Positions 1 to 4,816 of a stretch of 44,845 bases of DNA are shown piece after piece. Origin of the DNA: Candidatus Gastranaerophilales bacterium (lineage in GTDB: Bacteria > Cyanobacteriota > Vampirovibrionia > Gastranaerophilales > Gastranaerophilaceae); contig CALVAS010000007.1 of assembly GCA_944325585.1 (NCBI GenBank), positions 1-44,845 of the forward strand, read 5' to 3'. A model generated the notes under the pieces. It saw only the letters and a program-made list of their open reading frames with translations. It did not search any database and was not told the origin of the DNA. A program made the position numbers and the translations under genes. The first letter of the stretch is position 1; each line of letters starts with the position of its first letter.

Positions 1-61
1 GCAGCCTTATTTAAGCCCCCCCCCCCCCTGGCTGGAATCCTCTCATAGTTTGTGTTTTCAT
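1..61 (-). pseudogene. 5' end of a prepilin-like gene, out of frame at a G13 tract (cut by window edge)
   Basis: On the minus strand a strong ribosome site (AAGAGGAG, 68-75) precedes ATG at 61. The reading begins MKTQTMRGFQPGGGGA and meets TAA at 11-13, immediately after a run of 13 G (C on the plus strand, 16-28). One extra G would bypass the stop and read on as ...GGGGG-LNKAA to the window edge. The start closely matches the leader at 3921 (MKKQTMIGF, then a G run, then RNKA), which precedes a prepilin-like gene. By that analogy this is probably the start of another type IV pilin-like gene, currently OFF. The body lies outside the window, so the product is inferred. An assembly error in the homopolymer is the main alternative. 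Confidence 0.5.
16..28. repeat. C13/G13 homopolymer tract
   Basis: Thirteen consecutive C occur in an otherwise A+T-rich region, inside the leader of the minus-strand gene that starts at 61. G tracts of this length are classic slipped-strand sites for phase variation in other bacteria. The length read here may also be a sequencing or assembly artefact. Confidence 0.7.
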
Positions 62-131
62 AAATTTCTCCTCTTTGTTTATAAATATATTTTATCATAT
101 TTCGGGATTTAATCAACAATTTTATTTGTAA

Positions 132-143: not shown

Positions 144-1286
144 ATGGAAAAGAAGAGAAAAATCAGCATAATCGGTTCGACCGGTTCAATCGGCACTCAG
201 GCACTGGAAGTTATCGAAAAATTGAATGATAAATTTGAAATCATTGCGCTTGCCGGCGGAAATAATGTTGAACTTCTGGAACATCAGGCAAAAAAGTTTA
301 AACCAAAATATGTCTGCCACAACGCCAATGGCAAAGTTCTAAACGAAATTTCCGCGGAAATTTTGCATGGTGAAGAAGGTTTGGAACAAATTTGCTCCAA
401 CAAGGAAAATGATATTCTTCTCATTGCATGTTCAGGCAGAATAGGGCTTAAACCAACCCTGAAAGCCATAGAAAACGGTATAGATATTGCGCTTGCCAAC
501 AAAGAAACCCTTGTTATGGCTGGTGATATCGTGATGAAAAAGGCTCGCGAAAACGGTGTTAAAATAATTCCGGTCGACAGCGAACACTGCGCAATTCACC
601 AGTGCATAAAAGACATCCGACAGGTAGACAAACTTATTATTACGGCAAGCGGCGGCCCGTTTCTGCGCAAGAGCATTGAAGAAATGCAAAAGGCGACTGT
701 AAAAGAAGCCCTCGCGCACCCCAGATGGCACATGGGTAAAAAAATCACGGTTGACAGCGCAACTTTGATGAACAAAGGGCTTGAAATTATAGAGGCGCAT
801 CATCTTTTCGGAATGGATTATGATGATATAGAAGTTGTGATTCATCCGCAGAGTATTGTGCATTCAGCAATAGAATATAAAGACGGAAGCGTTGTTGCAC
901 AGCTTGGTCTGCCGAGTATGCATATTCCGATTCAATATGCAATAACCTATCCAGAAAGATTTGAAGGGATTGAATCAAAAAGTTTCAGCTTTGCGGATGC
1001 TGCGCGTCTTGATTTTGAAAAACCTGATTTTAAAAAATTCCCAGCACTCGGGTTTGCGTATCATGCGGGCAGAACAGGCGGAACGGCAACGGTTTGTCTC
1101 AATGCCGCAAACGAAGAAGCGGTTTTTGCGTTTTTAGACGGAAAAATCACACTATGTCAGATTGTTGAAATCGTTGAAAAAATGCTTTTAGAACACAAAG
1201 TTATCCAAAATCCTTCAATAGATGAGATTTTTGAAGTTGATAATAATGTTAGAATGCTTACAAAAAAAATGGTTGCATCTTATTAA
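144..1286 (+). CDS. dxr: 1-deoxy-D-xylulose-5-phosphate reductoisomerase
   Basis: This cytoplasmic enzyme makes 2-C-methyl-D-erythritol 4-phosphate from DXP with NADPH, the committed step of the MEP isoprenoid pathway that feeds undecaprenyl phosphate and quinones. The 380 residues are full length for the family. Visible signatures are the NADPH loop GSTGSIG (11-17), LANKET (117-122), the metal-binding DSEH (145-148), SGGPF (169-173), the HPRWHMGKK flap (192-200) and MNKGLEIIEA (209-218). The ATG at 144 is the natural N-terminus because the Rossmann strand begins at residue 7. It has no Shine-Dalgarno, and a TATAAT ends 6 bases upstream. The gene converges on priA and stands alone, without the usual uppS/cdsA/rseP neighbours visible here. 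Confidence 0.97.
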   Translation: MEKKRKISIIGSTGSIGTQALEVIEKLNDKFEIIALAGGNNVELLEHQAKKFKPKYVCHNANGKVLNEISAEILHGEEGLEQICSNKENDILLIACSGRIGLKPTLKAIENGIDIALANKETLVMAGDIVMKKARENGVKIIPVDSEHCAIHQCIKDIRQVDKLIITASGGPFLRKSIEEMQKATVKEALAHPRWHMGKKITVDSATLMNKGLEIIEAHHLFGMDYDDIEVVIHPQSIVHSAIEYKDGSVVAQLGLPSMHIPIQYAITYPERFEGIESKSFSFADAARLDFEKPDFKKFPALGFAYHAGRTGGTATVCLNAANEEAVFAFLDGKITLCQIVEIVEKMLLEHKVIQNPSIDEIFEVDNNVRMLTKKMVASY

Positions 1287-3880: not shown

Positions 3881-3920
3881 AAACTCTGTAAATACATAAA
3901 ACAAGAAGGAGCTTAAAAAC

Positions 3921-3992
3921 ATGAAAAAGCAGACTATGATTGGATTTACGGGAAGGGGGCAACCCGCAATAAAGCTCCTGAGACGATTTTAG
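3921..3992 (+). pseudogene. Leader fragment of the prepilin-like gene, stopped by a frame shift at a G5 run
   Basis: From ATG 3921, with a strong ribosome site, the frame reads MKKQTMIGFTGRGQP and stops at TAG 3990-3992. Adding one G to the run at 3955-3959 moves it into the frame of the pilin body, which is open from 3917 through 4816. The joined protein would carry a 52-residue leader containing ATRNKAPETILG and RTNDFLKHLHRKFFNPA before the cleavage site. The opening residues match the leader at the left edge of the window. The cause is either a real frameshift, a slippage site or a one-base sequence error. Confidence 0.6.
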
Positions 3993-4021: not shown

Positions 4022-4816
4022 TTGCGTACGAATGACTTTTTAAAACATTTACACCGCAAATTTTTTAACCCCGCATTTACCATGGCAGAGGTCTTGATAA
4101 CACTCGGCATAATCGGAATAGTTGCCGCAATGACATTACCTTCTTTAATAGGCAAATGGCAGGAAAAAGTTCTTCAAGCACAGTTTAAAAAAGCATTTAA
4201 TATAATTAACGTTGCCACTCAAAAAACAGTTGCGGATTTAGGTTATGTGCCCGGATGTTATTACTGGGTAAAAGGTGACAGCCCCTATCCCAGTCTTGAG
4301 TGCGAAAAACAGGATGACGGCAATTGTATTTACAAATATCCGGGCGGTGATATGCCGTCGGATTACTACGGGCCAAACTCTGATTGTAGTGTGTTTTATG
4401 AAGCATTTGAAAAAAATTTAAACATTATCCAGCGCTGTCAGGATGCGGAAGAAGATGGCTGTACCGTGCATTATAAAGGTTCTGACACAATTTTAAAAGA
4501 AAGTGACGACTCGCTTTCACAGGAAGATATAAATGCCGCGACGACCGGTGATATAACATTGAAAGAAGATAATTTTAACAAAGTAAAAGCCATTGTTCTG
4601 ATTGACGGCATAACAATATTGGACTACCGTAATCACCATCCTTATATAGATATAAACGGCAAAAGAGGGCCTAACAAATGGGGGTATGACCTTTACCGTG
4701 TTATACGAAGAGGAACGCCTAAAAAAGGTATTTTTATTGATACTGACATAAGCCATCCTGTTGATAAAGGCGGAAAAACAGTCAGTGAAATGTATGAACA
4801 GTCATTTTTGCATTGA
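4022..4816 (+). CDS. Type IV prepilin-like protein (N-methylation motif)
   Basis: The coordinates are the body read from a TTG at 4022. The promoter and ribosome site point to ATG 3921 as the true start, one frame away. From residue 19 the sequence is the classic prepilin stem FTMAEVLITLGIIG: cleavage would fall between A18 and F19, with Glu at mature position 5, followed by a hydrophobic helix of about 20 residues. The remainder is a soluble domain of roughly 215 residues with cysteines near CYYW and ECEKQDDGNC that could form disulfides. Such proteins are processed by PilD-type peptidase at the inner membrane and join pili or type II-secretion-like pseudopili. No pilus assembly genes are nearby. 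The function is unknown beyond the family. Confidence 0.7.
   Translation: MRTNDFLKHLHRKFFNPAFTMAEVLITLGIIGIVAAMTLPSLIGKWQEKVLQAQFKKAFNIINVATQKTVADLGYVPGCYYWVKGDSPYPSLECEKQDDGNCIYKYPGGDMPSDYYGPNSDCSVFYEAFEKNLNIIQRCQDAEEDGCTVHYKGSDTILKESDDSLSQEDINAATTGDITLKEDNFNKVKAIVLIDGITILDYRNHHPYIDINGKRGPNKWGYDLYRVIRRGTPKKGIFIDTDISHPVDKGGKTVSEMYEQSFLH

Follow-up and report, generated by a model that had tools for sequence, protein, structure and literature searches.

Known systems of switchable surface proteins

Switching by a variable repeat in a leader is already known from Neisseria Opa and from Streptococcus gallolyticus Pil1. In Neisseria gonorrhoeae, about 11 opa genes contain CTCTT repeats within the sequence coding for the leader peptide (PMC3745409). 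The genes described here resemble them as a multigene surface family in which each copy has its own repeat in a leader inferred to be cleaved, so that the mature protein is not affected by switching. The two families differ in that the repeat unit is here one base, G, and not a pentamer, the products are pilin-like instead of outer-membrane adhesins, the genes are about three times as numerous and the mature bodies are diverse, with an identity of about 27-31%. These genes do not fit the description of an Opa-type outer-membrane beta-barrel with CTCTT repeats, since the products are pilin-like and the repeated base is G. The genome of Campylobacter jejuni NCTC11168 contains 29 poly-G/poly-C tracts of 7 or more bases (PMC4965091), which are comparable in length, are located inside reading frames, occur many times per genome and set ON or OFF states by frame. 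The tracts of C. jejuni are found mostly in surface-modifying enzymes, whereas nearly all of those reported here lie in the leaders of one structural gene family. In Streptococcus gallolyticus, GCAGA repeats are found in the leader peptide of Pil1 (PMC3894217). The repeat number in that short leader switches pilus expression, with most cells low, as is proposed for the genes described here. The Pil1 leader, however, is a separate ORF acting on a terminator upstream of the pilus operon, whereas leader and pilin form here a single ORF.

The encoded proteins share with type IV pilins and type II pseudopilins (TIGR02532, PF07963, GspG/ComG) an F-x-x-x-E N-terminus and a long hydrophobic helix, together with a beta-rich C-terminal part in the structural model and a prepilin peptidase in the genome. 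They depart from typical members of these families by their dozens of divergent copies in a 1.8 Mb genome, their long homopolymer leaders and their weak matches to curated models. Type IV pilus genes are already known in Gastranaerophilales (PMC5877343), and no paper joining this group with phase variation was found in the literature searched. If the reading proposed below is correct, this would be, as far as that search shows, the first phase-variable surface repertoire described in Gastranaerophilales, a common and mostly uncultured lineage of the animal gut related to cyanobacteria. As a family of a single structural protein switched by homopolymers, it would also be among the largest, with more than 30 tract genes in this genome and more than 80 G tracts in some relatives, most of the sampled ones at pilins. 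The selection behind such variation in a commensal would then become testable. A practical warning can also be drawn, as many of these genes will look startless to gene callers and assemblies break at the tracts.

Two tract leaders in one contig

The window analysed here is the whole of contig C7 (44,845 bp), from a genome of 1.76 Mb assembled in 105 contigs and 96% complete (G000). Its relevant features are the following.

1..61, minus strand: start of the leader ORF, MKTQTMRGFQP followed by the G tract; it stops after the tract, is OFF at 13 G and runs off the contig edge
16..28, minus strand: 13-base G tract (C on the plus strand), proposed to act as the switch, with 11 or 14 G predicted to give ON
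68..73, minus strand: Shine-Dalgarno-like GAGGAG of the window-edge leader, read from the sequence
144..1286, plus strand: dxr-like gene, divergent neighbour of the pilin leader, with synteny in two congeneric species
3906..3913, plus strand: Shine-Dalgarno AAGGAGCT of the second leader, complementary to AGCTCCT at 3973-3979
3921..3959, plus strand: second leader, MKKQTMIGFTG, with an interrupted tract (GGGAAGGGGG, 3950-3959), out of frame
4073..4810, plus strand: mature pilin-like frame FTMAEVLITLG..., 246 aa, open, with no start codon in its own frame ahead of the leader

On the minus strand from position 61, the window-edge leader reads ATG AAA ACA CAA ACT ATG AGA GGA TTC CAG CCA, 13 G, GCT TAA. 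Its translation, MKTQTMRGFQPGGGGA, thus ends at a stop two codons past the tract. With a single added G, the leader would read on through LNKAA and, in the continuation on contig C17, into FTMAEVLITLG, the N-terminus of a prepilin. Runs of at least nine G are matched five times (overlapping matches) in the window, for 0.06 expected from shuffled sequences. The second gene, at 3921, is probably a family member locked OFF, an inference made from the sequence because its tract is interrupted and out of frame and its pilin frame has no start codon.

The original prediction, made from sequence alone, had described a minus-strand leader with 13 G and a prompt stop of the frame, which one added G would extend into LNKAA. 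Both points held, except that the Q between F and P had been missed. It had also called such an arrangement hard to attribute to chance, and the G runs are far above the shuffle expectation. The claim of two leaders each followed by a G tract held only in part, as the leader at 3921 does exist while its tract is interrupted and not pure G.

Probable continuation of the edge gene on another contig

Contig C17 starts with the identical leader and 13 G, followed in another frame by LNKAA-FTMAEVLITLGIIG and an open pilin-like frame of 243 residues. The sequence of the window is taken up on C17 from base 77. The overlap between C7 and C17 amounts to 137 bases, the final ~61-76 of which are identical, and all 13 mismatches fall in its first ~61-76 bases. 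The mismatched start of C17 resembles degraded reads, as do several other contig ends adjoining G tracts. That C7 and C17 adjoin in the genome is inferred and not shown. This adjacency is nevertheless supported by synteny, since the same dxr-like neighbour, taken to be a 1-deoxy-xylulose-5-phosphate reductoisomerase from its STGSIG start, has a homologous tract leader and pilin in two other species of the genus. In both, a homologous leader with G12 or G13 runs into a pilin, divergently upstream of the dxr-like gene, and both pilin genes are out of frame as assembled.

More generally, contigs of this lineage frequently terminate at tract leaders, and the assembled sequence is garbled by low-complexity errors within ~70 bases of G tracts, for instance at C17:1-76, at C59:1-60 and at the end of L115. 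Tracts in the interior of contiguous genomes have these same lengths and frames too.

A large pilin-like family in the genome

A search of the genome for pilin-like N-termini returned 52 matches. The leaders of 48 of these could be parsed: 32 contain a run of 7-14 G, two an interrupted run, and the remaining 14 are short plain leaders without a run, such as MKKG or MNKSA. Seen from the tracts, the genome holds 39 runs of at least eight G, 31 of them at identified pilin genes and five more in a leader context truncated at contig ends; no pilin context was found at the tracts of C61, C65 and C73. The leader pattern of the MKxQTMxGF type is matched 10 times in the genome, against none for the reversed-pattern control. 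One of these matches, on C24, was rejected as a chance occurrence without tract or pilin. Among the members in frame, L038 (GGGGGAGGGGG) is likely to be locked ON.

The original prediction was to be abandoned if no pilin-like sequence lay beyond the left edge of the window, or if no other gene of the genome had such a leader. Neither circumstance applies, with a pilin found on C17 and in the syntenic relatives and more than 30 other tract-leader genes in the genome. The size of the family, the prevalence of OFF genes and the exchangeable nature proposed below for the leader had been overlooked.

The pilin identity of these proteins rests on their motif and on weak profile hits. It is likely, and cleavage, filament assembly and surface display are inferred. 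F1, T2 and E5 are invariant in an alignment of 46 members, and position -1 is mostly occupied by Ala, with Gly in other members. GspG is matched by 43 of the 46 at E<=0.01, TIGR02532 by 13 and PF07963 by 5, the C17 pilin itself remaining below the cut-offs of the curated models. The predicted structure (model pLDDT 81) consists of a long N-terminal helix (3-55) and a beta-rich C-terminal part. A sequence search of the PDB gave no relative, and a Foldseek search of the model against the PDB gave no match at E<=0.001. With VIA-align, the gonococcal pilin 1ay2_A was recovered at Z 3.7 (rmsd 3.9 over 121 residues), among weak rows and not as the top one. The genome encodes a prepilin peptidase, a secretin and four assembly ATPase genes.

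Distribution among relatives

The metagenome-assembled genomes matched by the leader pattern are named Candidatus Gastranaerophilales, Melainabacteria or uncultured bacterium, and no match to this pattern was found in viral contigs. A generic test independent of the leader peptide (nine G followed, after 20-50 bases, by the prepilin motif, with a reversed pattern as control) was applied to 382 genomes of the class. It was met in 62 of them, distributed over 11 genera that all belong to the family of the window, and the reversed control gave 0 everywhere. The arrangement of tract and prepilin was not found in the sampled genomes of other families. The number of G8+C runs, counted in 117 genomes of the family, varies between 0 and more than 80 per genome, and this strong patchiness among genera suggests that the system was gained or lost repeatedly.

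Sampled tracts were followed by a pilin in 20 of 22 cases in one species of another genus and in 22 of 23 in a second, with leader peptides quite unlike those of the window's genus and sometimes with poly-C. Sampling one or two tracts in each of 30 other tract-rich genomes showed that 18 of 31 precede a pilin. The presence of unrelated leader peptides, and of poly-C at the same place, indicates that it is the homopolymer and not the peptide that is conserved. In the poly-C leaders (L171, L177 of G034, L206 of G092, L218 and L219), proline codons replace those of glycine. At another locus, L236 (G076:C1), an 11-G tract lies within a frame that resembles by eye a glycosyltransferase; poly-G switching may possibly reach beyond pilins in some genera.

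Reading frame, tract length and selection

The frame could be determined at 124 loci with a recognisable start. Only 21 are ON, 64 being one base over and 39 two bases over. The share of ON genes is below one third (p = 5e-5), with the caveat that related loci are not independent. Most genes of the family are thus OFF as assembled, a result shown for the assembled frames and only inferred for expression. In the window's genus, tract length tracks frame and 50 of 77 loci have one G too many, whereas independence of length and frame would give 31 (permutation p < 0.0001). Most loci of genus g22 are two bases over, which amounts to one G too few, and ON, +1 and +2 frames are all found on near-identical leaders of one genome. 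As the preferred frame differs by genus, there is no single programmed frame; the loci tend rather to lie one step away from ON.

Variation in length is observed among close sequences. Near-identical leaders of G092 have 9, 10, 11 or 12 G, and orthologs have tracts of G12 and G15. One pilin, 94% identical between the window's genome and G007, is ON in the former and OFF in the latter, and G007 itself contains two 96% identical paralogs, one ON and one OFF. The tract-length variation called for by the original prediction is therefore present among paralogs and between species, and is only inferred within a population. At what is seemingly one pilin locus, C71:72 (L159) has 13 G and C43:14102 (L166) has 10 G with identical downstream sequence. 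This difference is suggestive only, and could reflect a mixed population or a read artefact, either being possible.

The out-of-frame pilins are full length, with more than 100 open over more than 110 codons. In the ortholog pairs tested, OFF in both species, dN/dS ranges from 0.06 to 0.13. In these pairs, the OFF pilin genes are intact and under purifying selection.

Proposed mechanism and rival explanations

The most likely reading is that a large pilin family, the majority of whose genes are OFF, undergoes phase variation through its homopolymers, reversible switching and mixed populations being inferred. Translation would begin at the leader, cross a poly-G tract of ~8-14 bases and enter the prepilin N-terminus FTxAEVLITLG, where a prepilin peptidase would remove the leader. 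Slipped-strand events during replication would alter the tract by single G's, at a rate that is itself inferred. Leader and pilin would share a frame at every third length only, 11 or 14 for the window gene, which is assembled with 13. Because the tract lies within the leader to be removed, a change in length would switch expression and leave the mature pilin unaltered. Given independent switching and a majority of OFF genes, the cells of one population would therefore be expected to show differing and changing sets of pilins. The inferred role would be an escape from host immunity or phage, or an altered adhesion. The phase-variable pilin originally predicted is in this way supported by the tract, the frames, the family and the differences between close relatives, mixtures within a population being inferred. 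The reading is limited by the fact that length variation is seen between species and paralogs only, and that long G runs are error-prone in short-read assemblies.

The main rival remains a programmed slippage, because of the frame bias. According to this explanation, the slippery tract is fixed and the RNA polymerase or the ribosome slips on it, giving a low and set expression without genetic switching. The bias towards one G too many and the tracking of frame by length in the window's genus, which pure slippage in replication does not predict, as well as the purifying selection on OFF genes, speak in its favor. It is nevertheless unlikely, since the preferred state varies by lineage (mostly one G too few in g22), all three frames are found together in one genome on near-identical leaders, pilins that are 94-96% identical differ by being in or out of frame, and unrelated leaders and poly-C tracts are used as well. 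A universal programmed +1 frameshift was downgraded, since the reverse preference is seen in g22 and tract length varies between near-identical leaders. A UUG/CUG start lying immediately upstream of the tract in the +1 frame (ATGATTGAA, noted from the sequence only) was rejected, as it cannot serve the loci that are two bases out.

Two other explanations are very unlikely. Homopolymer miscalls in the assembly, or decaying pseudogenes, are suggested by the garbled contig ends beside tracts and by the discordant lengths on C71 and C43. Against them, the interior tracts of contiguous genomes have these lengths and frames too, more than 100 out-of-frame pilins are open with a dN/dS near 0.1 in the tested pairs, and miscalls would not explain why nearly all the G runs of a genome belong to a single gene family. 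Attenuation by a leader peptide, as for Pil1 of S. gallolyticus, would make the leader a separate regulatory ORF whose tract length sets the ribosome stop relative to a hairpin. It finds support in the Shine-Dalgarno complement (AGCTCCT and variants) located after the tract, with a perfect pairing of 6 or more nt at 55% of 137 loci against 9% of mononucleotide shuffles. However, most genes have no independent in-frame ATG between the tract and FTxAEV, so that leader and pilin must be one ORF; several genera show only weak pairing or none, and an Rfam scan of eight loci detected no RNA family. The post-tract complement could fold back onto the ribosome binding site.

Leaders as proposed exchangeable cassettes

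Leader identity is 55-87% within a genome and ~37% between genera, the latter value being in our judgement near the chance level for such a comparison. The mature parts of the pilins are ~26-31% identical in all comparisons. The C1/C75 pair of the window's genome shares 95% identity along 235 bases that begin ahead of the start codon and end near residue 26 of the mature pilin; beyond this, identity falls to 27%. At the dxr-like site of the three species, the leaders are homologous while the C17 pilin is 30% identical to the two others, which are 90% alike. It can be inferred that leaders are homogenised in each lineage independently of the mature pilin, for which recombination between the conserved sequences of the leader and of the N-terminal helix is the simplest account. 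A bolder reading, somewhat less likely than not, is that of a mobile-like cassette of tract and leader. In each lineage, gene conversion would spread a single leader type through dozens of pilin genes and homogenise it, and mature modules would be swapped underneath, giving a combinatorial and independently switched display.

Three leaders of the window's genome, L031, L045 and L041 (on C9, C89 and C16), contain inserted palindrome-like repeats reading CHSELDSES or CHSELAAKSVETK, which extend the leader to ~70-90 residues and leave the pilin frame unbroken.
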